Of a stretch of DNA of 48,209 nt, positions 33,239 through 48,209 are shown in pieces. The DNA is taken from contig JACNGQ010000116.1 of the NCBI GenBank assembly GCA_014384025.1, positions 1 through 48,209 on the forward strand, given 5' to 3'. The DNA comes from Planctomycetota bacterium. GTDB taxonomy: Bacteria; Planctomycetota; Phycisphaerae; Sedimentisphaerales; Anaerobacaceae. Made by a program: the position numbers and the translations under genes. The first letter of the stretch is position 1. Each line of letters begins with the position of its first letter. The notes beneath the pieces are model-generated. The model was given only the letters and a program-made list of their open reading frames with translations, was not told the DNA's origin and made no database searches.

Positions 33239-34138
33239 ATGAAGGGCGTTTTAGAAATACGCAAATTATTTTGGATTATAAATGCAGTATTGATAGCAAT
33301 TCTGGTGTATATCATAGTTGGTTTTAGCCCTGGTGACTATGCAGGGAAGAGTATCTATGCCAATCCAATTCCTATTAAAGAAAAAGTGGAAATTATCCCC
33401 CGTGAGAATCCATTGTTGCCCGGCAGGCATAAGATTATTATGGAGCGGAACATTTTCGGCTCTTCAGGATTGAGTCGGGCTGGGGAGAATCCGCAGCGAG
33501 AAAAAACTGAACCTCCGATTTCTATTATTAAATCGCAATTTCGATTACTTGCCACGGTCGCAGGAGATGAGGTAGTGGCTTGTGCTGTGATTGAAAATTT
33601 GAAATCTAAAATGCAGGATATTTATAAGACTGGAGATAATATTGGCGGGGCACGGATTGAAGGAATTGAGCGAAACAAAGTAGTCGTTTTATACAGGGAT
33701 CAGCATGAGGTATTAAACTTGAATATAATGTGTAAAGTCTTAGATCCTGTTGGTAAAGACGAAGAACCTGTCATAGCCCAAAAACAAAATGCAACTGAAT
33801 CTGTAAAAGCTGTTTCACCCTTTGAGAGAGGAATAGTTAAGAGAGCACTTGTCACACAAGTTCCAAGGATAGAAGTCTTTTTAGAAAAAATGGAAGCAGC
33901 TCCTTATATTATAAATGGACAGCAAGAAGGATTAAGTATAACAGGTTTGGATGGTTTGAGTATGGCCAAGTATTTTGGACTTGAGAATGGTGATGTTATT
34001 CAGACTATAAATGGACAAATGTTAACTAATAAGCAAAAGGCTTTTCAGGTTCTTAAGAAAGCCCGGTCACAATCTTCGTTAAACGTCGAACTTTTGCGAA
34101 ATAAGCACAAGATGGATCTTTCATTCGAATTAAATTAA
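33239..34138 (+). CDS. gspC: Type II secretion protein C, copy 1
   Basis: A 299-residue inner-membrane protein. One N-terminal helix (FWIINAVLIAILVYIIVGF, about 10-28) is followed by a linker and the homology region (IMERNIFGSSGLSRAGENPQ, then FRLLATVAGDEVVACAVIEN). A C-terminal PDZ-like domain (about 225-299: GLSMAKYFGLENGDVIQTIN) follows. This is the GspC layout, in which HR contacts the GspD secretin and PDZ contributes to substrate handling. A clear paralogue lies at 37513. GGGGG lies upstream of ATG 33239. Confidence 0.8.
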   Translation: MKGVLEIRKLFWIINAVLIAILVYIIVGFSPGDYAGKSIYANPIPIKEKVEIIPRENPLLPGRHKIIMERNIFGSSGLSRAGENPQREKTEPPISIIKSQFRLLATVAGDEVVACAVIENLKSKMQDIYKTGDNIGGARIEGIERNKVVVLYRDQHEVLNLNIMCKVLDPVGKDEEPVIAQKQNATESVKAVSPFERGIVKRALVTQVPRIEVFLEKMEAAPYIINGQQEGLSITGLDGLSMAKYFGLENGDVIQTINGQMLTNKQKAFQVLKKARSQSSLNVELLRNKHKMDLSFELN

Positions 34139-34519: not shown

Positions 34520-36681
34520 ATGAAACGTCACATTATTTTTCCATTGATGTTAATTAGCCTTTTTGTTATTCAAAGCAGTTCCTATGCACAGGCACCGCCC
34601 GATGAAGTGGCGTCCTTTGTTACGAACTGCTCACCTGCTCCCGACGACGACCAGGTGCCTTTGAACAACCTGATTAGCTTTGATATTACTGATGATGGTA
34701 CAAACGTCAATATTGATTCAGTAGAGGTTAAAGTGGCCAATAAAAAAGGGAAGTCCTTCAATGGTAATTGCCAAAAGGTGCTTAAGTCGGTTAATAATAA
34801 GAAGCGTGATTATACGATTGTTTACCAGTCTAATCAAATGTTTGATAACGAACAGGATATAACTATTACCATAACAGCTTTCGACTATGCCGGTAATGAA
34901 CTGAAAAGTTATGAATATCATATCATAACAGAGATGCGTTCATTCGGACAGAACAGAAAGGTCAATTCTGACCTGGGAAATATCGATAGTAGTCACCCTG
35001 TAACGGTATGTGACAGCATTAGCGGCAATACCTGGGTGACCTGGCAGGCCGGGCCGGTAGGCAGTAGAGATATTTATGTTAGCAAACTTCCATCGGGAGC
35101 GGTAAGTTTTGATAGTGCCGTTAAAGTGACCGGCAATGCCAGCGACCAGTGTAATCCTGCTATTGCTCTTGATAGTAACGGTAAACCGTATGTTGTATGG
35201 CAGGACAACAGTAGCGGGAACTGGGACATATACTTGTCTATCTATGATGGAACAGACTGGTCCAGTGAGAGAATGGTTAATGAACCTGAAAATAATCAGA
35301 CGAATCCTGCTTCTAATCAGGTGAATCCTGCTATAGTTCTTGATGGTCAAACTCCAAACCAGGTTTACGTTGTCTGGCAGGATGACGATGCAGGCAATCA
35401 GGATATATATATATTGCGAATTCGAGTGATGGTTTTGCAACACCAACTGTATCGCAACTAATAACCTCCAATACAGATACTTCCGATCAGATAGAGCCTG
35501 CTATTACAGTCGATTCGGCCAATACGGTTTACATAGTATGGACGGATGGGCGTAACAGTTCAACCGATATTTACGGAGCGGCCTCAAATAATACATGGAC
35601 AAATGTTGCGGTTGTGGACGACACGAACAACCAGACGAGCCCGGTGATTGCAGCCGAAGAAGCAGGTACAATCCTGCATTTGTTGTGGGTTGACGATACA
35701 CCCGGCGACAATGACATATTCTATGCGACATCGGAAAGTTTGTCCGATTGTCCTTTGACCGGCAGTAGTATTATCGATGAACCTGGTACCAACCAAAAAG
35801 AGCCGGCGATTTTCGTAACCGGCAGCACAGGTAATAATCTGAGAGTCTATGCCAGTTGGCAGGATTGGCGGAACGTTGACACTACGAACCCAAATGATAC
35901 GGACATATACTTTGCTGAGCTGAGTTCCAGTCTCGGAACAAATATTTTCGTGGGCGATGGGGGTACAAATTCATACCAGGGCGAACCGGCGGTAGGAGTA
36001 TGCAAGCTTGGCTTTCCATACCTCGTATGGACTGATGGCAGAAACGCGAACACAGATATTTATTACGCCGCCAGCACTTTTGTAGATCCTCTTCCCGTTT
36101 GGACACAATATGTTCAACACATTAATGGGGCCAACTGGGGTGATGATAAGGTAGGTCAACTGAATAGTCCGGGTGAAATCAACATTAAAATACCACCACG
36201 AGCATTTCCATTTGACTGTGATATGGTCATCAGCGCCTCGAGAATAATGAATACGAATACACAAAGATTCACGGCAAAAGAGTGCAAGGGTCAGTTCGAG
36301 TTCGGTCCGAGCGGGATTCACTTTAGTGTGCCGATTACTATTACAATTGCATATGCACCCTCGAGCGCTCCGGCTGAAGTATATTGGTATGATCCGGAAA
36401 ATGATATTTTAAGACAGGATGGGATAACAAATGTTGAGTATATAGAAAAAGCAACTGTGCATCTTGTGCGTTTCAAGACGAGGCACTTTACGTCGTTTTA
36501 TCTGGTCGAAGGCGATGCTGCTGCAGCAGTTGTTGGAGGTGGCGGAGGCGGAGGTGGTGGTTGTGCTATATCTGCCAACGGCCGGGGTAACGTGATTGAA
36601 TACATGCTGCCATACGTTTTCTACATTTTTGTCTTATTAATGATAAAGCTAAAGGATGCACACAATCGAAAGATAATATAG
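34520..36681 (+). pseudogene. Secreted beta-propeller protein with Gly9-Cys sorting tail (frameshifted)
   Basis: ATG 34520 follows GGAGGG. A signal peptide (IIFPLMLISLFVIQSSSYAQA) starts a protein of about 720 residues. After an Ig-like region there are at least six repeats of the type V.WQD...NWDIY.S or VWTDGRN..TDIYYA, a beta-propeller. The frame breaks at (AT)6 (35403-35414). Removing one AT restores DIYIANSSDG and a frame to 36681. The C-terminus has a ZU5-like region, nine Gly, Cys, a hydrophobic helix (YMLPYVFYIFVLLMIKL) and KDAHNRKII, a sorting-signal layout. The neighbouring CPBP protease is its likely processing enzyme. The break could be phase variation, mutation or sequencing error. 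Confidence 0.75.
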
Positions 36682-36718
36682 CATAAAAGACAATACATAG
36701 TATAATAAACAAGGCTTT

Positions 36719-36760
36719 GCATCTGGCAGTGGCAGGTACCGTTGCCAGATGCTTTATTTT
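36719..36760 (+). terminator. Rho-independent terminator after the propeller gene
   Basis: GCATCTGGCA (36719-36728) pairs perfectly with TGCCAGATGC (36743-36752), followed by TTTATTTTG. It separates the propeller gene from the CPBP gene. An upstream TTG (36742) in the CPBP frame overlaps this stem, so it is not the start. Confidence 0.75.
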
Positions 36761-36777
36761 GTGTGGGGAAGAAAGTC

Positions 36778-37461
36778 TTGATTGAAGGCAGAGATAAATT
36801 AAGTGTTGCCGGAATGCTTCTTTTGGTTGAGATGCTGTGTGTTACTGTTGTTACGATAGGGCTAATAAAGCTCTTGCGTAATAATGTAAATATCAGGGGA
36901 GACTGGTTCCTGGCTCCCTTTATATTAATAACGGCGGCTTTGGTCCCTACCCGTTTAAGGAAAAGAAGTTTCGCTGAGATTGGTCTTCGAGTAGGGCCGC
37001 CGGGATTGATTTTGAGGGTGCTCTGTGCAGCTTGTGTCATAGTATTTCCCCTTCTATTGATAGGCATATTATTGCTGAAACACCTTAATATCCAGTTACC
37101 ATTAAGTCCGATAATTCCGGAGGGGCGTTGGTTCTCATGGTTGGCTTATCAATTCATGTATGTTGCAGTCGCCGAAGAGATTTTCTTCAGGGGGTATTTT
37201 CAGTGCAATGTACTGTCTTTATTAACTATGTCCGCGCAAAAAAACCGTTTATTTTTGGAAATAATCGGTATAATAATATCAGCAACCGTCTTCGCTATAT
37301 CACACTGTTTAATTCTGGGAAGTGTAATGCCGATTATTACTTTTTTACCGGGATTAATTTTCGGTTGGTTGCTCGTTAAGACTAAATCGCTGTTAGCGCC
37401 GGTCTTGTTTCACGGTTTAGCTAATGTTTTTTATGGCTTAATCGCAGCGATGTTGGCTTAA
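36778..37461 (+). CDS. CPBP-family glutamic intramembrane protease (myxosortase-like)
   Basis: A 227-residue protein from TTG 36778, with GGGGAAG six bases upstream. It has several membrane helices. The CPBP/Abi motifs are complete: EE and R in AEEIFFRGYFQ (about 132-142), His in FAISHCLILG (about 175) and H...N in PVLFHGLANVFY (about 211-216). These form the catalytic glutamate/histidine site of Rce1-like proteases. It lies directly after a protein with a Gly-rich Cys tail and inside a type II secretion locus, as do the sorting proteases for MYXO-CTERM-like tails. Dedicated processing is inferred. A decayed copy lies upstream of gspC1. Confidence 0.82.
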   Translation: MIEGRDKLSVAGMLLLVEMLCVTVVTIGLIKLLRNNVNIRGDWFLAPFILITAALVPTRLRKRSFAEIGLRVGPPGLILRVLCAACVIVFPLLLIGILLLKHLNIQLPLSPIIPEGRWFSWLAYQFMYVAVAEEIFFRGYFQCNVLSLLTMSAQKNRLFLEIIGIIISATVFAISHCLILGSVMPIITFLPGLIFGWLLVKTKSLLAPVLFHGLANVFYGLIAAMLA

Positions 37462-37512: not shown

Positions 37513-38412
37513 ATGAAGAACGTTTTAGAAATACCAAGAATATTGTTGATTACGAATATAGTCCTGCTGGTACTCCTGGGATATATAGTCGCCGGATTTA
37601 TCTTTCGTAACGATAGTGGGCAAAGTGCCGTTTTAGAGCCGATTTCCACAACGGATGGAGAAAAAAATGCCCTCAATAAAGACCCTGTCGAGGTGGATAA
37701 TCCTGATATTATTCTTGAGCGTGATATTTTCGGCTCTTCAGGATTGAGTTCAGCTAAGCAGAATCCGGAACAAGAAATAACAAAGAATTCGATTTCTGTT
37801 CTTAAGGCACGGCTTCGGTTGCTTGCTACTGTTGCTGGAGATGAGGAAGTGGCCTGCGCTGTGATTGAAAACATAAAAACTAAAATACAGGATCTGTATA
37901 GGATCGGAGATACTATCGAGGGTACACGGATCGAAAGAATTGATCGGAATAAAATAGTCCTTATAAACGAGGGGCGCCGTGAGGTCTTAAGTTTGTATGT
38001 AACAGATAGGATTTCAGATGGGATTGAAAAGAGTATCGAACCGGTGATTGCCCAAACACCCGATGCTGCTGAGGCTGTGAATGTTATTTCGCCGACCGAA
38101 CGGGAAATAAACACGAAAGCGTTTCTTGCAAGAGTGGGGGGGATGGAGGCCATTATGAAAACAGTGGAAGTCGCTCCTTATTTGGAAGATGGTCAGGAGA
38201 AAGGTGTGCGTATCACAGGCTTGGAAGGTTTGAGCATGGCCAGGTTCGTAGGATTTGAGAATGGTGATATTATTCAGAACATAAATGGCAGCACGGTAAC
38301 TAACAGGCGAAAGGCTTTCCAGATTCTTAGAAAAGCAAGGTCGCAATCTTCAATAGAAATTCAGCTTTTGCGGGGTCAACAAGAGAAGAAGCTTTCGTTT
38401 GGGATTAAGTAA
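37513..38412 (+). CDS. gspC: Type II secretion protein C, copy 2
   Basis: A 299-residue protein. ATG 37513 (MKNVLEIPRILL) aligns with the start of copy 1 and is preferred over a TTG at 37501. It has the same layout: an N-terminal helix (LLITNIVLLVLLGYIVAGF), the HR domain (ERDIFGSSGLSSAKQNPEQ, then LRLLATVAGDEEVACAVIEN) and a C-terminal PDZ-like domain (GLEGLSMARFVGFENGDIIQ). By eye about half the residues match copy 1, with the HR and PDZ cores best conserved. It stands next to gspD and is probably the main GspC of the locus. Confidence 0.85.
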   Translation: MKNVLEIPRILLITNIVLLVLLGYIVAGFIFRNDSGQSAVLEPISTTDGEKNALNKDPVEVDNPDIILERDIFGSSGLSSAKQNPEQEITKNSISVLKARLRLLATVAGDEEVACAVIENIKTKIQDLYRIGDTIEGTRIERIDRNKIVLINEGRREVLSLYVTDRISDGIEKSIEPVIAQTPDAAEAVNVISPTEREINTKAFLARVGGMEAIMKTVEVAPYLEDGQEKGVRITGLEGLSMARFVGFENGDIIQNINGSTVTNRRKAFQILRKARSQSSIEIQLLRGQQEKKLSFGIK

Positions 38413-38456: not shown

Positions 38457-40478
38457 ATGTCAATATTATATGATAAAAAACGGCCGGGATTGTTGGGTAC
38501 AAGAATTTCTTTATTGTTTTTAGTGCTTTGCAGTTGTTTTCTGATAGCGGAACTGCAATCATCAGTATCTCTTGCAAATGAGCAGTCCAAGAGCCAGGTA
38601 TCCGACAAATCTACAAAGATGGCAGGTCCGAAAGTATATATGCCGGAACTCCTTAAGCCCGGCGTGGCGGACAAACTGATTTCACTGGATTTTGACCAGG
38701 TGGATATTAAAATTTTTATCAAGACTATCGGTGAGCTTACAGGGATCAATTTTCTTATTGATGACAGTATTCGCGGTACCGTTACACTTATTTCACCTAC
38801 TCAGATACGACTTGGAGAGGTCTATGAAGTATTCGAGTCTGTACTGCAGGTCAAGGGCTTTGCCGCTGTGCCTGCAGGAAAGATAGTCAAAATTATTCCT
38901 CGTGCAGAAGCGTCAAAAAGTAATATCTTAATACGTGTTGGGAGTGATCCTGAATTAATACCTCAAAATGACGCTGTCGTAACACAAATTATTCCAATAC
39001 GTTTTGCCAACATTGCAGAGATAAGCAGCTCACTTACACCGTTAGTATCGACCGGGGGAAATTTAACGACATATGTTCAGTCAAACTCAATTATTTTAAC
39101 CGATACTTCGTCCAATATCCACAGGATGGCAAAGCTTATTCAGGAGCTTGATACTGAAGGGGCAAAAGAGAATATCGTTTTGCTCCGTCTTCAATATGGT
39201 TCCGCTAATACTATTAGCGAACAGATTAAACAGATTATGGAACAAAGTGCTGTGGCATCCGGCGGCAGGGTGGCAAGGGCCGTTCCTCCAGGGGCGGGTG
39301 CTACATTGAAGATTTTGCCCGATGAACGGACCAATTCTTTGATTGTGTTGGCAAATCCTGATGATACCGAAATAATCAGGGGACTTGTCAATGAATTAGA
39401 TGTCGAACGTCCTGTCGAAGCGGGTAACGTGCATGTAATTTATCTTAACCATGCAGAAGCTGCTGATGTTGAAAAGTCGCTTTCAAAAGTATTGGGACAA
39501 CTGGTTTCAGGCAGCAAAATCGAATCCCGTGAGCCTTTACAGATAACCGCAGACGAAAGCACAAACTCGCTCATTGTTGTGGCTTCATCTCAGTACTACA
39601 GGATTGTCGAAGATATAATTGGAAAATTAGATGTGGTCCGTGAGCAGGTGCTGGTCGAGTTCCAGATAATCGAAGTTAGCGAAGAAGTCTTAAAAGAAAT
39701 CGGTGTTGACTGGGCGACACTTGACCAGGCAATCGCTGATAGTGTTCGCGGTTTCGCACTGACAAATCTTGGCCCCAGGGTTGAAGCAGCATCAGGCGAC
39801 CTTGAAGGCCTGGCTATCGGTTTACATAAAGAGGTTGGGGGGCAGGTAACAATTGGTGCCGTTTTAAAAGCCCTTGAAAAACAGGCAGGAGTTAACATTC
39901 TTTCAACGCCGCATGTGCTTACTTCCAATCATCAAGAGGCAACTATCATAGTAGCCGACAATGTTCCCTATGTGAGAGATTCACGTGTTACGGAAATTGA
40001 CCCGGCCACGCCTACTAAAATTCAAACGTACGATTTCAAGGATGTTGGTATCGAACTAACAGTCACGCCTCACATCAGTCCTGGTGATTATGTACGCCTT
40101 GAAGTTGATGCGAGTTTTAGCAAGCTCGTACCCTCAGCGGCGACCGGGGTAATAAGCGGCGACACTCCGACAACGGCCACTCGGGACGTTAAAACCGTTA
40201 TTTCTATCCCGGGTGGTGCAACTGTTGTCATAGGTGGATTGATACGGGATGACAAGGAAACTCTTGAGAAAAAGATACCGTTACTCGGAGATATACCACT
40301 CATCGGAGGATTGTTCAGAGTCGATAGAGACCGTGTCCAAAAAACGAATCTGCTTCTTTTTATAACTCCCCATGTTCTGACAACCAGGGAAGCCATCGAA
40401 CAAATAACGGAACTGAAAAAACGGCAGACGTTAGAACCCAAGGCAAGTTTTGAAGAGGAACTAAGTTTTTTGTTTTAA
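38457..40478 (+). CDS. gspD: Type II secretion secretin GspD
   Basis: A 673-residue outer-membrane secretin with an N-terminal hydrophobic signal (LLFLVLCSCFLIAEL). The N0 domain (LDFDQVDIKIFIKTIGELTG, about 80-100) is followed by N1-N3 repeats (IPIRFANIAEISSSLTPLVS, then VIYLNHAEAADVEKSLSKVL). The secretin core comes last (VLVEFQIIEVSEEVLKEIG, about 396-414, and VVIGGLIRDDKETLEKKIPL with LLGDIPLIGGLF). Length and domain order are usual. It forms the outer-membrane channel fed by GspC-M. Confidence 0.93.
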   Translation: MSILYDKKRPGLLGTRISLLFLVLCSCFLIAELQSSVSLANEQSKSQVSDKSTKMAGPKVYMPELLKPGVADKLISLDFDQVDIKIFIKTIGELTGINFLIDDSIRGTVTLISPTQIRLGEVYEVFESVLQVKGFAAVPAGKIVKIIPRAEASKSNILIRVGSDPELIPQNDAVVTQIIPIRFANIAEISSSLTPLVSTGGNLTTYVQSNSIILTDTSSNIHRMAKLIQELDTEGAKENIVLLRLQYGSANTISEQIKQIMEQSAVASGGRVARAVPPGAGATLKILPDERTNSLIVLANPDDTEIIRGLVNELDVERPVEAGNVHVIYLNHAEAADVEKSLSKVLGQLVSGSKIESREPLQITADESTNSLIVVASSQYYRIVEDIIGKLDVVREQVLVEFQIIEVSEEVLKEIGVDWATLDQAIADSVRGFALTNLGPRVEAASGDLEGLAIGLHKEVGGQVTIGAVLKALEKQAGVNILSTPHVLTSNHQEATIIVADNVPYVRDSRVTEIDPATPTKIQTYDFKDVGIELTVTPHISPGDYVRLEVDASFSKLVPSAATGVISGDTPTTATRDVKTVISIPGGATVVIGGLIRDDKETLEKKIPLLGDIPLIGGLFRVDRDRVQKTNLLLFITPHVLTTREAIEQITELKKRQTLEPKASFEEELSFLF

Positions 40479-40583: not shown

Positions 40584-42290
40584 ATGAAGGTGGAATTATT
40601 AGGACAGATACTATTAAGGCAAACCTCACTTGCAGAGCAGCAATTAACCGATGCTCTACGGCTGCAAAATAATGAAAATCAAGGCCAAAGAATCGGTCGA
40701 ATACTAACCAGGGCCGGCAATGTCACTGAGATTGAGGTTCTCAAAGCCCTGGCTCAACAATGGGGGCTTTCTTATTTGGATAATATACCGCAGAAAAAAC
40801 TCAACAAAGACTTAGTTGCAAATTTGCCGATTGAATTCTTAAAAAAACACAGGATTCTCCCGTTTAACGGGGCCCAGGAAACAGTTAGTCTTGCTGTGAG
40901 CGATCCCCTTGATGTAATGGCGTTTGATGCCGTCGTTAAAATGCTTGGCGTTAGCTGCGAGAGGATTATTTGTGCGCCTTCTGTGATTGAAGACAGACTC
41001 AGCCACTATTATTATCAAAGTGAAGGCTCCGCCACAGAGGCATTAACCGAACTGGACGGCAGCATGGATTTTATCGGTTTGACTTCGGGGTCCGCCTCAG
41101 AAGACCTTTTGGACCTGGCGAACAGGGCGCCGGTTGTTAAATTGGTTAATACTATTTTTTTTCAGGCTGTCCAGGCCCGAGCAAGTGACATACATATCGA
41201 GCCGTATGAGGATGAGGTGACTGTTCGTTTTCGAATAGATGGTGTGCTGCATAACAAATTTGCTCTTCCGAAGCAGTATGTTGCTGCGTTGGTATCGCGC
41301 CTGAAAATTATGGCAAATTTAAACATTGCCGAACGCAGACTTCCGCAGGATGGGCGAAGCAGGATTAAAATAAGTGAAAATGAAATAGACATCCGGGTCT
41401 CGACCGTTCCCAGTTCAGATGGTGAACGTGTTGTTCTGCGGCTTTTGGACAAGAGCGGGGCACGTTTCGGCCTCAGCCAGTTGGGATTTACTGCCGGCAC
41501 TGGAAAGGAATTTCAGCGGCTTATTCATATACCTCACGGCATAATTCTTTTAACAGGACCTACCGGCAGCGGTAAAACAACTACGCTTTACAGTGTCCTT
41601 GGGGAACTGAACACGGAAGTTCGGAACATTATGACGGTTGAGGACCCGATAGAATACAAGCTTGCCGGGATTGGTCAGATGCAAATACATCCGAAGATAG
41701 GCCTGACTTTTGCAAATTACCTGCGGCATATTCTCAGGCAGGACCCGGACGTAATTATGATTGGAGAAATCCGTGATCTTGAAACTGCCCAAATCGCTAT
41801 CCAGGCAGCTTTAACAGGACATCTGGTTTTAAGTACGCTCCACACAAACGACTCTGCGAGTGCTATAACCCGTTTGATTGATATGGGGATTGAGCCTTAC
41901 CTGGTTTGTTCTTCTGTTATCGGGATAATGGCACAAAGGCTGGTAAGGATTATCTGCCCGCAGTGCAAGGCTCCCTACACGCCAGGTGAAGAAGAGCTGG
42001 AAGTATTTGATGCCCAGTTACAGTATCGTAAAGAAAATTTATATCAAGGCAAAGGATGCCCGAATTGTATCGGTACCGGATATGTGGGACGAGAGGGAAT
42101 ATTCGAATTGATGACGATTGACGATGAGATAAGAGAGTCGATTATGGCGAATTCCGGGTCAAATCAGATAAAACAGATTGCAGTAAAAAAAGGTATGTTT
42201 ACGTTGCGCCAGGATGGTCTAAGAAAAGCCTTCTCAGGTGAAACAACTATTGAAGAAGTTCTGCGTGTGGCACAGGATGCGGCAGTATGA
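40584..42290 (+). CDS. gspE: Type II secretion ATPase GspE
   Basis: A 568-residue cytoplasmic ATPase. The N-terminal T2SSE_N domain precedes the motor. ARASDIHIEPYEDEVTVRFR then IDGVLH is the conserved N2 segment, Walker A GPTGSGKTTTLYS is near 326-338, the Asp box is DPIEYKLAGIGQMQIHPKIG and Walker B is DPDVIMIGEIRD. CPQC (near 457) and CPNC (near 491) form the zinc-binding tetracysteine typical of GspE/PilB. It powers pseudopilus assembly together with GspF and GspL. Confidence 0.94.
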   Translation: MKVELLGQILLRQTSLAEQQLTDALRLQNNENQGQRIGRILTRAGNVTEIEVLKALAQQWGLSYLDNIPQKKLNKDLVANLPIEFLKKHRILPFNGAQETVSLAVSDPLDVMAFDAVVKMLGVSCERIICAPSVIEDRLSHYYYQSEGSATEALTELDGSMDFIGLTSGSASEDLLDLANRAPVVKLVNTIFFQAVQARASDIHIEPYEDEVTVRFRIDGVLHNKFALPKQYVAALVSRLKIMANLNIAERRLPQDGRSRIKISENEIDIRVSTVPSSDGERVVLRLLDKSGARFGLSQLGFTAGTGKEFQRLIHIPHGIILLTGPTGSGKTTTLYSVLGELNTEVRNIMTVEDPIEYKLAGIGQMQIHPKIGLTFANYLRHILRQDPDVIMIGEIRDLETAQIAIQAALTGHLVLSTLHTNDSASAITRLIDMGIEPYLVCSSVIGIMAQRLVRIICPQCKAPYTPGEEELEVFDAQLQYRKENLYQGKGCPNCIGTGYVGREGIFELMTIDDEIRESIMANSGSNQIKQIAVKKGMFTLRQDGLRKAFSGETTIEEVLRVAQDAAV

Positions 42291-42311: not shown

Positions 42312-43535
42312 ATGCCCCTATTTAAATATATAGAGTTAAACAGCACAGGCCGGAAGGAACGTGGAACGATCGATGCGGCTTCAATTGCAGAGGCAAGAAG
42401 GACACTTCGTGCGGCCAAAGTACATCTTCTGGAAATCACAAGTATGCAGAAAGATATTCATCGTCAGCTCGGCGCCGGAACAAGGACTATCAGCTTTCGC
42501 AGGATAAAACAAAAAGATGTCTCGGTTGCCACAAGGCAACTGGCGACCTTGCTGCATGCGGGCATTCCGCTTGTGCCCGCCTTGTCTGCTTTGGTTGAGC
42601 AGCTATCGACTCAGCCTTTGGAAAAAGTCTTTGCGCCGATACGTGACAGGGTTAATGAAGGTATTCCATTGGCAAAAGCGATGGCTGAATACCCGGGTGT
42701 TTTTTCGGAAGTCTTCGTCAGCATGATAAGGGCCGGAGAGGCTGCTGGTACTCTGGAAAATGTCCTGTTGCGATTGGCTGAAATTGCGGAAAGACGCACT
42801 AATCTTACTAATAAGGTAAAAGCTGCTATGGCTTATCCGGCATTTATGGCAATCGTGGGTGTAAGTGTAATAGTGTTTATATTTACGTATGTAATTCCCA
42901 GTATTACAAAACTGTTTCTTGAGATGAATCGTCAGCTTCCCTGGCCGACTGTTATGTTAATGAGAATAAGTAATTTTATTCAGAATTACTTCTGGTTTTT
43001 GATAATTATCCTGATTGTAATGATAGTTGCCCCGATATTTTGGTCAAAGACAACGAAAGGCCGAAGAGTTTGGGATCAAATAAAATTGAAATTGCCGCTG
43101 TTCGGCAATCTTAATCGCAAGATAGCAATATCCCGCTTTTCACGGACATTGGCGGTACTTTTAGCCAGCGGGCTTTCAATCGTTGAAACACTTGACCTTT
43201 CCAGGCAGGTGATAGGTAATACGGTCATTTCCGACGTAGTTGACCAAGCAAAGAATGCGATCAGCCATGGGGCTGGGATCGCCGAATCGTTCCGAAGAAG
43301 CGGAGTTTTTCCGCCTATTGTTATTCATATGATTTCAGCCGGTGAGAAAAGCGGGGGAATCGAAGAAGGGCTTACAAATGTTGCAGATGCTTTTGATAAT
43401 GATGTTGAGGTAACGGTAAAGGCACTGACGTCGCTTCTTGAGCCGGTAATGATTGTTCTATTGGGGATTATTGTCGGATTCATTGTTCTTGCGATTTTAA
43501 TGCCGATTTTTGATATTAATCGTGCTATAGCTTAG
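42312..43535 (+). CDS. gspF: Type II secretion inner-membrane protein GspF
   Basis: A 407-residue protein with two repeated T2SSF domains (VATRQLATLLHAGIPLVPAL near 73-92 and SRFSRTLAVLLASGLSIVET near 277-296) and membrane helices (AFMAIVGVSVIVFIFTYVIP, FLIIILIVMIVAPIF, and a C-terminal LLGIIVGFIVLAILMPIF). It forms the platform that couples GspE rotation to the pseudopilus. It sits 21 bases after gspE. Confidence 0.93.
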   Translation: MPLFKYIELNSTGRKERGTIDAASIAEARRTLRAAKVHLLEITSMQKDIHRQLGAGTRTISFRRIKQKDVSVATRQLATLLHAGIPLVPALSALVEQLSTQPLEKVFAPIRDRVNEGIPLAKAMAEYPGVFSEVFVSMIRAGEAAGTLENVLLRLAEIAERRTNLTNKVKAAMAYPAFMAIVGVSVIVFIFTYVIPSITKLFLEMNRQLPWPTVMLMRISNFIQNYFWFLIIILIVMIVAPIFWSKTTKGRRVWDQIKLKLPLFGNLNRKIAISRFSRTLAVLLASGLSIVETLDLSRQVIGNTVISDVVDQAKNAISHGAGIAESFRRSGVFPPIVIHMISAGEKSGGIEEGLTNVADAFDNDVEVTVKALTSLLEPVMIVLLGIIVGFIVLAILMPIFDINRAIA

Positions 43536-43547
43536 GAGAACATACAA

Positions 43548-44003
43548 ATGAAAATATTGAGATATTCAGAACGCAGTGTTCGGCTGCCCGGTTTTACCTT
43601 GATAGAATTGATGGTAGTAATAGTCATTCTCGGACTTCTCGCCACAATAATAATGCCAAAGATTCTGGACAGGCCCGAGCAGGCACGAAGATTAAAAGCA
43701 AAAGTTCAGATTAAGAATATTCAGTCGGCGCTGGCGCTTTTAAAAACGGACACGGGGCGATTCCCCACAACTTCACAAGGTTTGGAAGCCCTTATAAACG
43801 ACCCAGGATTGAAAGGATGGAAAAAGGGCGGGTATATAGAAGGAGGCAAGGTACCTTTAGATCCATGGGGTAATCCATATATGTATCTTTGTCCCGGCGT
43901 GCATGGTGAGGATTATGAAATAGAATCATACGGCAAGGACGGAGAAGATGGTGGCTCCGGAGATGATGCAGATATTGAGAGTTGGAACATTGACCAGGAG
44001 TAA
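43548..44003 (+). CDS. gspG: Major pseudopilin GspG
   Basis: A 151-residue type IV pilin-like protein. ATG 43548 follows AGGAGA. The prepilin signal is GFTLIELMVVIVILGLLATI with Glu at +5 after the Gly cleavage site, preceded by a 17-residue basic leader. The GspG landmarks follow: LKTDTGRFPTTSQGLEALIN, then VPLDPWGNPYMYLCPG and SYGKDGEDGG (calcium-binding-type Asp cluster). It is the main subunit of the pseudopilus. Confidence 0.94.
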   Translation: MKILRYSERSVRLPGFTLIELMVVIVILGLLATIIMPKILDRPEQARRLKAKVQIKNIQSALALLKTDTGRFPTTSQGLEALINDPGLKGWKKGGYIEGGKVPLDPWGNPYMYLCPGVHGEDYEIESYGKDGEDGGSGDDADIESWNIDQE

Positions 44004-44009
44004 TCACTC

Positions 44010-44510
44010 ATGCAGTGGCGCCAAGGTGGATTTACACTGGTCGAATTGGCAGTAATTATTTTGATTATAGCTGCCTGTGTAACGGTTGTATTTCCAAAGT
44101 TTTCCAATGTTTTGTTGGATCAACAGCGACTTAAAAGCAGTGTGAGCAAAATTGCCAGCATTGCTGAATATGCCCGTCAAAGAGCTGTTTCTACACACTT
44201 AACACACCAGCTTCACTTTAATATTGAACAGGGAACATACTGGGTAACGGCCCATACGCCGGATGGCAGGCTGATGCCGATGACTGATGGGCTTAATTTA
44301 AAGGGCCGGCTTCCTGAAGACATCCGTTTTTACGGTATAGATTTTCCAGATATAAGGACCGATTCGGGGGATGTTGTCGCCATAGAGTTTAGTCCGCAGG
44401 GTTGGATTGAGCCTGCAACAGTTTATGTAGCTTCCTCTCAAGGAAGGAAAATGAGCGTTGTTATGCACGAGATGCTGGGTTACATTGAAACGCTTGAGGT
44501 GTTTGAATAA
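44010..44510 (+). CDS. gspH: Minor pseudopilin GspH-like
   Basis: A 166-residue protein with the prepilin motif GGFTLVELAVIILIIAACVT right at the start (Gly-Phe site at about 6-7, Glu at +5). The C-terminal domain has beta-strand composition ending EFSPQGWIEPATVYVASSQG, characteristic of GspH/FimT-like minor pseudopilins. It sits six bases after gspG. Confidence 0.85.
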   Translation: MQWRQGGFTLVELAVIILIIAACVTVVFPKFSNVLLDQQRLKSSVSKIASIAEYARQRAVSTHLTHQLHFNIEQGTYWVTAHTPDGRLMPMTDGLNLKGRLPEDIRFYGIDFPDIRTDSGDVVAIEFSPQGWIEPATVYVASSQGRKMSVVMHEMLGYIETLEVFE

Positions 44511-44522
44511 ATAGATTTCAAG

Positions 44523-44972
44523 ATGTGGAAGAATAGTAAAAACAAATGGTCTCTTCATACAATCAGGGCGTTTACCCTGATAGAAGTGCTGATTGCCCTG
44601 GCCATTACTGTAATCGGCCTGGTACCTCTTCTGCATTTACTTACTGCAAGCATTCTTATGACCGATTCGGCATGGAATTTATCCCAGGCAACACTAATAG
44701 GCAGCGCCAGACTTGCGGAAGTAATTTCTCAGAATGACATTAAAATCGGTACGGACAAAGGAAGTGTCGAGGGTCGGGAAAAAGAGATTGTTTTCGACTG
44801 GCAGTCAAAAGTAACTGAAGCGTATATTGAAGAGCTTCAAGAGACAAATACGACCGACCTGCGTAAGGTGACCGTTACTGTGATGTGGCCTGAAGGCCAA
44901 AGCCAAAAACAGATATCATTGACGACTTATGTTTTCATCGACAAGACTGTGACTAAGGCCGGTGCGATCTGA
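44523..44972 (+). CDS. gspI: Minor pseudopilin GspI-like
   Basis: A 149-residue protein with the prepilin motif RAFTLIEVLIALAITVIGLV (Ala-Phe cleavage site, Glu at +5). The soluble domain ends with DLRKVTVTVMWPEGQSQKQI, the usual 'V.V.W..G' end of GspI. It begins the GspI-J-K tip complex. Confidence 0.85.
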   Translation: MWKNSKNKWSLHTIRAFTLIEVLIALAITVIGLVPLLHLLTASILMTDSAWNLSQATLIGSARLAEVISQNDIKIGTDKGSVEGREKEIVFDWQSKVTEAYIEELQETNTTDLRKVTVTVMWPEGQSQKQISLTTYVFIDKTVTKAGAI

Positions 44973-44973
44973 T

Positions 44974-45756
44974 ATGAAAATGCCCGAAAGAACAGCTAAA
45001 AGAGAAGCTTTCACCTTATTGGAGATTATCATAGCTCTAAGCATGATTGTACTGATTTTAGGAAGTGTTTACGGCGCTTATGCGGCTGCTGCGAGGGCTT
45101 TGGCGCATTCTAAACCAAAACATGCTTTGCAGCAGCAGGCTACGGTCTTTTTACAAAGGATAGCGTCGGAAATACGCTGCAGCTATGCCGGTTACCAGGA
45201 GGAATCTCCGCAGCCTGCAGCAAGCAATATTCGAACTGGCGAAAGAGAACGCCTCAGGCAGGAAGATGCATCTTTATTTGAGGGCAGAGAAGTTTCATCC
45301 GGGCGGAGTTTTTTGCAGTTCGTAACTTCGGCAGTGGCCTCAAAACGAGAGCATAGCCTCGGAGGTCTTGCTATAGTCGAATATATGCTGGATAGCTCAA
45401 CGAACACTTTATCGAGAAGTAAACGAAGATATATAGGTGGATTCGAGGTCGATAAGGATAGTCACAATTGGCTTGTTGTTTTGGAGAACGTACAGGCGAT
45501 TTCGGTTGAGTATTTCGACGGCGACGAATGGCTCAATGAATGGAATTCGAATGGTATGAAAGGATTGTTACCTCAAGCTGTCGGGATATCACTTGTTATG
45601 CAATCTGAGGATGTTGGGCCTTTGTCGTTTGAATCTACAGTTAAGATAGTGTGCAGGGCAAATAAATTAGGCGGTGTTGCCGTTCAAAAGACCACGGAAA
45701 GCGAGAAAAAATTACAAAGTATCGGTAATGGTAATAATCCAAGATCAAATGATTAA
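44974..45756 (+). CDS. gspJ: Minor pseudopilin GspJ-like
   Basis: A 260-residue protein. ATG 44974 lies one base after the gspI stop and is preferred over GTG 44962. The prepilin motif is EAFTLLEIIIALSMIVLILG. The large soluble domain (FLQRIASEIRCSYAGYQEES, then VSVEYFDGDEWLNEWNS-like sequence) matches GspJ. It overlaps gspK by eight bases. Confidence 0.85.
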   Translation: MKMPERTAKREAFTLLEIIIALSMIVLILGSVYGAYAAAARALAHSKPKHALQQQATVFLQRIASEIRCSYAGYQEESPQPAASNIRTGERERLRQEDASLFEGREVSSGRSFLQFVTSAVASKREHSLGGLAIVEYMLDSSTNTLSRSKRRYIGGFEVDKDSHNWLVVLENVQAISVEYFDGDEWLNEWNSNGMKGLLPQAVGISLVMQSEDVGPLSFESTVKIVCRANKLGGVAVQKTTESEKKLQSIGNGNNPRSND

Positions 45757-46780
45757 AAAAATAAGAAAAAATAAAGACAGAGGTTTTGTTTTAATTGCGG
45801 TCCTGTTGATAATATCCGTCCTGGTAACGATTATCCTGGAATTCAATTATGAATCGCGGATGAAACTTCATCTTTCTGATAACTTTCATAATGCTTCGAA
45901 GGCCTTAAATTATGCCGAAGCCGGTATTTCTATTGCAATGGCGGGCCTGAAACAAAATGAAAATATACTCTCTGATGAAAGATTTATCCCTCTTTTTTCA
46001 GGAGGGATTCAAATTCCGGTTGAAAACGGTTTTTGCACTATATTGATTAACGATGAAAGCGGTAAAATTAATGTAAACGCACTTAAGACATCTGATGATA
46101 AAATTGTACGGCACAGAGTTGACCAAATACTGAAACTGATTGACCTTTTGAATTATCAATACCGGGAACAATCTCCTGTTAGCTACAGCTTGATTCCCGC
46201 CATAATCGATTGGGTTGATTATGACGATGAAGTGACAATTCTGCCCTTCATAAAAAGAGAAAACGAAGGTGCTGAAAGCAATTATTATCGGGACCTTATT
46301 GACCCGTATAAATGTAAAAATGCTCCTTTTGAAACACTGAATGAACTGTTGCTGGTAAAAGGGATGACCCCGGTAATAATCTATGGGCACACCGGCGATG
46401 AAACTCAGAATATAGGACCTGTAGATGGAATTCGGCAATATTTAACCGTTTACGGCGATGGTAAGATAAATATTAATGAAGCTTCGCCGATGGTTATTAT
46501 GAGTTTGTCTGAAAAGATGAGCGCCTCCCTGGCGCAGAGTATCGTTGAACAACGGAAAATCAAGCGGTTTGTTAGTGTGGGACAACTGCAAAATGTACCT
46601 GGTATGACACCCCAGGTGTATGAGTCTGTCCGTGAATTAATAACTGTTAAACCCCGGGATCATTATTATAATGTAACTGTAACCGGCGTGGCCGGCCAGT
46701 TTATACGAAAAGTTCAGATTGTACTTAGAAGTGACAGTAGCACCGCCCGATTAGAGACAATTTTACGCATAGAACTCTAA
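45749..46780 (+). CDS. gspK: Minor pseudopilin GspK
   Basis: A 343-residue protein. ATG 45749 (MIKKIRKNKDRGFVLIAVLL) overlapping the gspJ stop is preferred over upstream starts. The prepilin motif RGFVLIAVLLIISVLVTIIL has no Glu at +5, as expected for GspK. Later come DESGKINVNALKTSDDK, IPAIIDWVDYDDEVT and KININEASPMVIMSLSEKMS with SVGQLQNVPGMT, the two helix-hairpin-like SAM regions of GspK. It caps the pseudopilus tip. Confidence 0.9.
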   Translation: MIKKIRKNKDRGFVLIAVLLIISVLVTIILEFNYESRMKLHLSDNFHNASKALNYAEAGISIAMAGLKQNENILSDERFIPLFSGGIQIPVENGFCTILINDESGKINVNALKTSDDKIVRHRVDQILKLIDLLNYQYREQSPVSYSLIPAIIDWVDYDDEVTILPFIKRENEGAESNYYRDLIDPYKCKNAPFETLNELLLVKGMTPVIIYGHTGDETQNIGPVDGIRQYLTVYGDGKININEASPMVIMSLSEKMSASLAQSIVEQRKIKRFVSVGQLQNVPGMTPQVYESVRELITVKPRDHYYNVTVTGVAGQFIRKVQIVLRSDSSTARLETILRIEL

Positions 46781-46832
46781 CGGGTGCATGCAAAATGACA
46801 GCGATCTGCAATAACTGTTAAGGTGAAATCCT

Positions 46833-48209
46833 GTGAAGCGGTCGATAGGGATAGATATTAATAAAGACACAATCAGCATAGTTCAACTGTGCTTTACGGG
46901 AGGTAAATTTTCTCTGGAGCGCGCGAGTGTCCGCCAAATGCATGAAAGCGGTTCATCCGAAGACAAATCTACGATAGATATCGAAGCTTTGATTAACGGC
47001 ATGTTAACCGAAGATAATTTTGATATGTCGGCTAAGGTTACAGTGACGGCGCCGGCTGACAGGATTTTCTTTCAAAATTTCAGAACGGATCTTTCGGCAA
47101 ATGAAGATGTACAGCAATTGATTAAATTTGAACTTGAAGACGATTTTCCGATTCCTTTTGACGAACTTGTCGCAGGTATTTGTGGCAGCCGTGAACTCAA
47201 AGGAAATGACAGGGAATATCTCATAAGCGCTATCAACCGCCTGGAGCTCCAGGAACGGATTAAAACAATAAAACAGGCAAATCTAAAATGCTCGATTGTT
47301 ACGGCCGATGTTTGCGCGCTTTATGCCGCAGCATCATTAAGTGATAATCTGATTGATAATACTCCATCCGTGATTGTCCATGCTGATAATTCCAGGATAA
47401 TCCTGGCAATAAGTGAAAAAGGCAGACTTGTTTGCGTCAGACATTTTAACAGTCAGGATTTGGCCCAGGCCCAGGGCGATACACCGTTAACTCCGGTACA
47501 AGTCTTGACACGTGAGATTGAAATGACCTTAAGGGTGGTATTTGGCCCGGATACTGATACCAGGCGAAAAATATTTATAAGTTCGAATAACAAGCTTCTT
47601 GACGGCTTATTTACGGGATTACCGGAATCAATGAATTGTGAGGTAATTGCATTAAATCCCTTTGCAAAGATAGATTGTTCTGGCCGGCAGCAGCCAAATC
47701 CCGATATTGTAATTGCTGCAGGCTTAGCGCTGATAGGAACTAATGAAATTCCCGATGTACTAAACTTTATTGCTGTCGATGAATCCAGGTTGGACCAGGC
47801 AGTGGAAATAAAACGAGGTCTGTATATTGCCGGGGCCTTGCTTTTTGTCATTGGTGCCTTGTTGGTTGTAATGCTTTTCTTCGAACTTAATAATCTTGAA
47901 AACCATCACGAGCTTGTAAAAAAGCAGATTCGCGAGGTGTTCGTACAGACTCTTCCTCAAGAAAAGAATATTGTAAACGAGCTTGCGCAGTTGAACGAAC
48001 AGTTGGAAACATCACAGGCCCAATACAATGCCCTTGCAGCCGGACTGAGTGATAGAGTCTTGCCGCTTAGAATCCTGCAGACTATAAGCGAAAAAATTAC
48101 ACCGGATCAGAATATTCGTATTAATGATATTTCAATGGCCCCTGAGTCGGTTCGTTTGACAGGTGTCGCTCCTTCATTTGAGTCAGTGGATAACCTGATG
48201 AGTGTTTTG
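46833..48209 (+). CDS. gspL: GspL/PilM-PilN-like assembly protein (cut by window end)
   Basis: The frame is open from GTG 46833, with AAGGTG about eight bases upstream, to the window end (459 codons). Residues 1-310 resemble an actin-like PilM/GspL cytoplasmic domain: KRSIGIDINKDTISIVQL, APADRIFFQNFRTDLS and IKFELEDDFPIPFDEL. One membrane helix (GLYIAGALLFVIGALLVVML, about 329-348) and a PilN/GspL-like periplasmic coiled segment follow, so PilM and PilN parts are joined in one protein. It would anchor GspE to the membrane. GspM is expected next, outside the window. Confidence 0.85.
   Translation, partial: MKRSIGIDINKDTISIVQLCFTGGKFSLERASVRQMHESGSSEDKSTIDIEALINGMLTEDNFDMSAKVTVTAPADRIFFQNFRTDLSANEDVQQLIKFELEDDFPIPFDELVAGICGSRELKGNDREYLISAINRLELQERIKTIKQANLKCSIVTADVCALYAAASLSDNLIDNTPSVIVHADNSRIILAISEKGRLVCVRHFNSQDLAQAQGDTPLTPVQVLTREIEMTLRVVFGPDTDTRRKIFISSNNKLLDGLFTGLPESMNCEVIALNPFAKIDCSGRQQPNPDIVIAAGLALIGTNEIPDVLNFIAVDESRLDQAVEIKRGLYIAGALLFVIGALLVVMLFFELNNLENHHELVKKQIREVFVQTLPQEKNIVNELAQLNEQLETSQAQYNALAAGLSDRVLPLRILQTISEKITPDQNIRINDISMAPESVRLTGVAPSFESVDNLMSVL

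Follow-up and report, generated by a model that had tools for sequence, protein, structure and literature searches.

In the 48,209-nucleotide stretch of planctomycete DNA analysed here (the window), the gene for a protein with a signal peptide and a Gly-rich, Cys-containing C-terminal tail is followed by the gene for a CPBP intramembrane protease inside a type II secretion (T2SS) gene cluster, and we regard it as probable that the two form a myxosortase-type sorting pair built into the T2SS operon, with lipid anchoring and T2SS export of the client as parts of one pathway. The anatomy of the two proteins, the intact catalytic motifs, the conserved gene order, the co-occurrence of the genes and the predicted folds are matters of observation. 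The T2SS genes span position 33239 to the right edge of the window in the order gspC1, client-CPBP pair, gspC2, D, E, F, G, H, I, J, K and a gspL-like gene. The features are listed below; L046 denotes the locus of the closest relative (VRUK01000065.1), the protease of which is 91% identical.

33239-34138, + strand: gspC1, T2SS inner-membrane/PDZ component (NCBIfam GspC_delta 107 bits, cut-off 150; L046 orthologue at the same place)
34520-35410, + strand: 5' part of the substrate, with signal peptide (about 34520-34594) and first beta-propeller-like repeats (open reading frame; beta_prop_Msarc repeat below cut-off)
about 35402-35415, + strand: TA run, two bases longer than in L046, which breaks the substrate frame (alignment with L046)
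35411-36681, + strand: 3' part of the substrate, with more propeller-like repeats, ZU5 domain and sorting tail (frame open 35386-36681; homologous to the intact L046 reading frame)
36073-36519, + strand: membrane-proximal ZU5-fold domain, ending in RFKTRHFTSFYL (predicted structure; Pfam ZU5 over cut-off in relatives)
36535-36681, + strand: C-terminal sorting tail, with nine Gly, Cys (36562-36564), AIS, PY, membrane helix (about 36592-36675) and basic end (alignments A1 and A4; 49 proteins)
36745-37461, + strand: CPBP intramembrane glutamic protease, myxosortase-like, start codon uncertain (Pfam Rce1-like, PF02517, 59.9 bits, cut-off 22.4; fold of Rce1)
37174-37179, 37303-37305, 37411-37413 and 37423-37425, + strand: CPBP motif residues EE, H187, H223 and N227, respectively (invariant motifs)
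about 37513-38412, + strand: gspC2, the gspC that lies directly 3' of the CPBP gene in relatives too (GspC_delta 128 bits, cut-off 150; Pfam T2SSC over cut-off)
38457-40478, + strand: gspD, secretin (TIGR02517, 472.9 bits, over cut-off)
40584-42290, + strand: gspE, ATPase (TIGR02533, 686.5 bits, over cut-off)
42312-43535, + strand: gspF (TIGR02120, 416 bits, below the cut-off of 424)
43548-44003, + strand: gspG, major pseudopilin (TIGR01710, 148.9 bits, over cut-off)
44010-45756, + strand: gspH, gspI and gspJ, minor pseudopilins (T2SSJ over Pfam cut-off; H and I are best matches below cut-off)
45674-46780, + strand: gspK (T2SSK over Pfam cut-off)
46827-48209, + strand: gspL-like gene, continuing past the window end (PilM_2 N-terminal and GspL C-terminal matches; best match below cut-off)

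The core of a T2SS (gspC, D, E, F, G and minor pseudopilins) is thus found in one cluster, in which GspD, GspE and GspG exceed their NCBIfam cut-offs and T2SSC (gspC2), T2SSJ and T2SSK their Pfam cut-offs, while F, H, I and L stay below. The two gspC products of the window are 48% identical and therefore may recognise different clients. In the window and in L046 gspC flanks the pair on both sides; it is single at the locus in the other genera examined. A tyrosine-type phage integrase (31405-32607; PF00589, 77.6 bits) lies about 630 bases ahead of the T2SS locus. A preliminary description, made from the letters of this DNA, had placed the pair between two gspC genes, had given the client an end of nine Gly, one Cys, a membrane helix and a basic tail, and had seen EE..R, H and H...N motifs in the product of the adjoining gene, and all three statements agree with the present analysis.

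The substrate begins with the signal peptide MKRHIIFPLMLISLFVIQSSSYAQA at 34520. As assembled, its gene is split over two frames: the frame from 34520 stops at 35461, and the tail is encoded in another frame, which is open from 35386. The break lies at GATATATATATATTGCG, at about 35402-35415, where L046 reads GATATTTATATTGCG and possesses one intact open reading frame of 747 codons; either an assembly error or a recent dinucleotide slip could account for it. The single open frame assumed previously is therefore present in the relative and not in this assembly. The substrate had also been described as a signal-peptide beta-propeller protein, which holds for the signal peptide and, in part, for the propeller-type repeats, which are weak (beta_prop_Msarc below cut-off); the domain that precedes the tail has a ZU5 fold, so that the protein is not propeller only. 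The ZU5 domain is predicted by AlphaFold2 with a pLDDT of 84.4, matches the ZU5 domain of ankyrin-B (Z 12.3 over 127 residues) and also resembles GAIN-containing CD97 (Z 8.9). Pfam ZU5 is over its cut-off in the relatives L048 and L053 and below it in the window copy (15.2 vs 21), and the matches in relatives together with the fold assign the domain to ZU5. ZU5 domains and the GPS of GAIN domains have been described as related and autoproteolytic (PMC3482391). In nearly all of 49 tail-bearing proteins the ZU5-like domain ends in TTHF[TS], at the turn that joins the final two predicted strands.

The nine Gly codons of the tail (36535-36561) comprise three different codons (GGA, GGT and GGC); the run is therefore no DNA repeat and looks selected as protein. 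The predicted membrane helix corresponds to model residues 176-203, and the substrate ends in KLKDAHNRKII. The Cys and one Pro are invariant both in an alignment of 20 tails and in one of 39. Across the 49 proteins the cassette consists of the ZU5-like domain to near TTHFT, about 18-42 residues with the Gly-rich run, then C[SA]x[SA], a helix close to PY and a basic C-terminus, with few deviations, and it is attached to differing passengers (propeller, Calx-beta, Ig-like, InlB B-repeats and a possible beta-helix). A search of the window's genome with the tail pattern gave two matches, the second being a protein at C395, and the reversed control pattern gave none; relatives encode one to five tail proteins per genome. 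Considering this control and the conservation across dozens of genomes, the tail and the pair are beyond chance.

None of the curated sorting-signal models exceeds its cut-off on any of the 20 tails. MYXO-CTERM (TIGR03901) matches 0 of 20 up to an E value of 10 (HMMER filters on), and the GlyGly-CTERM and PEP-CTERM models have no match among them. The nearest model is JDVT-CTERM (NF033191), which scores 14.2 bits on the window tail, below its cut-off of 27, and weakly matches 11 of the 20 (best member E 5.6e-4). Judged by these comparisons, the tail class falls outside the curated models and annotation pipelines would miss such tails, which fits the earlier suspicion that the tail type might be undescribed.

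The CPBP gene starts about 63 bases after the substrate gene. Its product belongs to the CPBP/Rce1-like family (PF02517) by score, by the motifs EExxxR, H and HxxxN and by predicted fold, and EE..FR, H187 and H223xxxN227 are invariant across 25 orthologues. The predicted structure (pLDDT 86.6) aligns with Rce1 (4cad; Z 14.8, 190 residues, rmsd 3.2), which is also the top Foldseek match with a probability of 0.97, and with SpdC (6u0o; Z 16.4 over 200 residues); the CPBP profile, run against PDB sequences, found no match. The protein's highest NCBIfam scores all come from myxosortase models, every one below its cut-off: MrtP 87.7 bits (cut-off 250), Mrt_core (NF040914) 80.8 (100), MrtC 77.2 (195) and MrtX 53.3 (180). 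Two further orthologues reach 82 and 87 bits on Mrt_core, the cut-off of which is 100. In a quick tree of 81 CPBP cores and 120 columns the proteins of this order form one clade (SH-aLRT 99), nested in a branch (SH-aLRT 95) with CPBP proteins of Myxococcota, Nitrospirota, Aquificota and Synergistota, some of them scoring above the Mrt_core cut-off; six CPBP paralogues from the window's own genome are placed outside this myxosortase-type branch. Given scores under all Mrt cut-offs and a clade of its own in a quick tree, the protein is not filed as a named myxosortase. It probably works like a myxosortase and is a near relative of that family. A bacteriocin-immunity type of CPBP protein is ruled out: the clade stands apart from the other CPBP proteins of the genome, which score at most 23 bits against the clade profile.

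Orthologues of the protease, a few of them fragments, were found in 45 of 148 relatives; those with names are Planctomycetota, several labelled Sedimentisphaerales or Phycisphaerae. In a class-wide sample the clade is confined to this order (28 of 397 genomes). Of 30 orthologue loci, 21 have a tail protein directly upstream of the protease gene; gspC lies directly 3' of the latter in 26 of the 28 loci with room for it. The order client-CPBP-gspC-D-E-F-G-I-J-K is kept, as far as the contigs reach, in six loci (L046-L048, L053, L055 and L056), and five loci (L018, L027, L030, L033 and L037) have the protease and gspC without an adjoining client; in the single-contig genome G044 the pair is far from its own gspC. 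Among the genes common to the conserved loci no lipidating enzyme was seen, and the upstream genes are mostly not conserved. Partial CPBP copies occur in G005 (L217, 236-5156), beside a second tail protein, and in G002 (L241 and L242), beside gspC, which suggests duplication and decay of the pair.

Over the 148 relatives, protease, tail and gspC are strongly associated. Counted as both present, only the former, only the latter and neither, protease and tail give 36/9/5/98, protease and gspC 41/4/10/93, and tail and gspC 39/2/12/95; all three are present in 35 genomes. Fisher p values are about 1e-20 to 1e-22, with kinship ignored. Most of the genomes are draft assemblies, and where an assembly is incomplete, linked genes are lost as a block, which inflates the co-occurrence as far as it concerns linked genes. 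Two controls reduce this worry. Tail proteins encoded on another contig or far off also track the protease, which is present in 18 of the 23 genomes that have such unlinked proteins (a list compiled by hand) vs 27 of the 125 others (p 3e-7). Within the seven genera that include genomes both with and without the protease, the tail goes with the protease in all seven, some of the negative genomes being incomplete. The tail was found without a detected protease in five genomes (G001, G021, G054, G062 and G080), and in one of them, the 94% complete G054, the tail gene abuts gspC and the protease is missing; nine genomes have the protease without a detected tail protein. G002, which belongs to the window's genus, retains beside gspC only CPBP fragments without the EE motif, and no tail protein was found in it, a state that looks like joint decay of protease and tail. 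The expectations that further proteins would share the tail, that they would co-occur with this CPBP clade, and that the clade would group with myxosortase-type proteases and be tied to the T2SS instead of joining the genome's other CPBP proteins are thus all confirmed. The term "dedicated", by which the pair had been characterised, is only loosely right, because one protease would serve one to five clients.

The precedent for the function of such a pair comes from Myxococcus xanthus, where cleavage of TraA by MrtX depends on the Cys and TraA requires the T2SS (PMC11980579). According to the model proposed for MYXO-CTERM proteins, such a protein is exported by Sec, is retained by its tail helix, receives a lipid on the Cys from a general enzyme, is cut by the CPBP protease, and is then exported in folded form by the T2SS and anchored in the outer membrane; the enzyme that adds the lipid in that pathway is still to be found (PMC11980579). 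From the MrtX/TraA case we infer cleavage, cut site, lipidation, T2SS export and anchoring for the system described here. After Sec export, the C-terminal helix would hold the client in the inner membrane, with its basic end facing the cytoplasm. A general enzyme such as Lgt would probably attach a lipid to the Cys that follows the Gly run. The CPBP protease would then cut between the Cys and the helix, leaving the client free of the helix and still anchored by its lipid, and the adjoining T2SS would carry the folded client, a propeller or other passenger on its ZU5 stalk, to the exterior side of the outer membrane. Other proteins with this tail, encoded elsewhere in the genome, would be clients of this protease too. 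The CPBP protease very probably cuts the Gly-Cys tail of its client.

What the cut would achieve can be read differently. If the Gly-Cys junction were a release site, the T2SS would export a soluble protein to the medium; this is the main rival to lipid anchoring. Such a cut takes off the sole membrane helix, many T2SS clients are soluble, the conserved operon includes no lipid-transfer gene, and release was discussed besides tethering by the authors of the GlyGly-CTERM study for their own system (PMC3237569). A plain release site, however, has no need of the Cys that is invariant in the alignments of 20 and 39 tails, and the MrtX precedent is one of Cys-dependent anchoring (PMC11980579), which makes release unlikely. 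Alternatively, the C-terminal helix could be a permanent membrane anchor and the gene order could reflect inheritance of the T2SS operon instead of a relation of enzyme and substrate. Uncleaved tripartite tails can indeed anchor proteins, and the pair and the T2SS are inherited together in most loci; but the unlinked tail proteins track the protease as well (18 of 23 genomes), the Cys and Pro of the tail are invariant, and T2SS export of a client on an uncut inner-membrane helix would be hard, so that we consider permanent anchoring very unlikely.

It is also conceivable that another enzyme, an exosortase or a rhombosortase, processes the tail and that the CPBP protein is a neighbour with a different role, for instance in the maturation of T2SS parts or in stress control. 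On the one hand, exosortase genes are present in 141 of the 148 relatives, some unlinked tail proteins are encoded 1-4 kb from such a gene, and the tail is Gly-rich like that of GlyGly-CTERM proteins. On the other hand, exosortase genes are equally common in tail-free genomes and do not track the tail, and three of the inspected exosortase loci (L234, L236 and L237) carry their own client ending in VPVPGAVLLG (PEP-type); exosortase is rejected as the processor because it is nearly universal and because these loci carry such clients. Neither the tail match nor the co-occurrence places the tail proteins in the PEP-CTERM/exosortase system. The rhombosortase model (TIGR03902) is over its cut-off in just 2 of the 41 tail-bearing genomes, the window's genome not being one of them, and neither GlyGly-CTERM nor PEP-CTERM models match the tail; with neither tail match nor enzyme in the genome, membership of the GlyGly-CTERM/rhombosortase system is not seen and rhombosortase is likewise ruled out as the processor. 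Taken as a whole, processing by one of these enzymes is highly improbable. The exosortase genes at L234-L238 are preceded, at a distance of 1-4 kb, by tail proteins, and in three of these loci a VPVPGAVLLG-tailed client follows, so that two sorting systems stand side by side.

Compared with known systems, the pair most resembles MYXO-CTERM/MrtX (with MrtC and MrtP), which likewise combines a CPBP glutamic intramembrane protease with a tripartite tail that contains an invariant Cys (PMC11980579). MYXO-CTERM surface proteins are T2SS-dependent (PMC11980579), and the clients here would be so too. MrtX has 35 predicted client proteins in M. xanthus (PMC11980579) vs one to five clients here, where the protease is encoded inside the T2SS operon beside a client; moreover, unlike the myxosortases, the window protein falls below the Mrt_core, MrtP, MrtC and MrtX cut-offs and its tail has no MYXO-CTERM match. 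JDVT-CTERM/MrtJ likewise has one tail-protein gene and one CPBP protease gene as neighbours (PMC11980579, on the basis of earlier work); it is described from beta- and gamma-proteobacteria, and the proteobacterial CPBP proteins L117 and L121, assigned to the MrtJ kind by organism only and by no model, branch elsewhere in the CPBP tree. Synerg-CTERM/MrtS also has an Mrt-type CPBP beside T2SS genes (L077), but it differs in phylum, in its short protease (about 185 aa) and in its place in the tree. GlyGly-CTERM/rhombosortase has a Gly-rich motif, a membrane helix and a basic end in species with a T2SS, and its single-client genomes have adjacent pairs, as here (PMC3237569). However, rhombosortase is a serine rhomboid protease and the enzyme here is a glutamic CPBP, and whereas no link to a T2SS subclass was found by the GlyGly-CTERM authors (PMC3237569), the link here is physical.

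Similar arrangements occur in other phyla. In the Nitrospirota loci L067 (8428-20273) and L072 a T2SS run (E, F, G ... K) is followed by a subtilase-like protein with a GGGGGGGCSIG tail and a helix, and then by an Mrt-like CPBP gene in convergent orientation. In L101 (Nitrospirota) and L089 (which groups with Nitrospirota) a protein with a GGGG(G)CSIG-type tail directly precedes a CPBP gene; these Nitrospirota tails have no NCBIfam sorting-signal match. In Synergistaceae, MrtS (184 bits, cut-off 130; L077) adjoins gspG. T2SS linkage of Mrt-type proteases is therefore not confined to this order.

The kind of system, myxosortase-type sorting, is known. Literature searches on Planctomycetota T2SS sorting and on Sedimentisphaerales CPBP proteins found nothing on this system, and as far as they reach, four of its features are undescribed: the protease clade, the class of tail, the stalk with its ZU5 fold and the location inside a T2SS operon; an earlier remark on T2SS linkage is possible.

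A further proposal, which we hold to be distinctly unlikely, is that there is a subclass of T2SS, in this order and separately in Nitrospirota, with an operon-encoded sorting protease and client, specialised for building the cell surface, and that the planctomycete clients combine a ZU5/GAIN-like stalk that would cleave itself at the conserved HF|T hairpin with a Cys tail cut by the CPBP protease. If this two-step reading of the cassette is true, the passenger would be held non-covalently on a lipid-anchored stub and could be shed.

The sorting pair itself physically ties myxosortase-type sorting to type II secretion, as the genes for client, protease and export machinery adjoin one another. 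One operon holds all three across an order of Planctomycetota, and Nitrospirota offer a parallel. The system is small, with one protease and few clients, and it makes the cleavage site, the modification of the Cys and the recognition by the T2SS directly testable.
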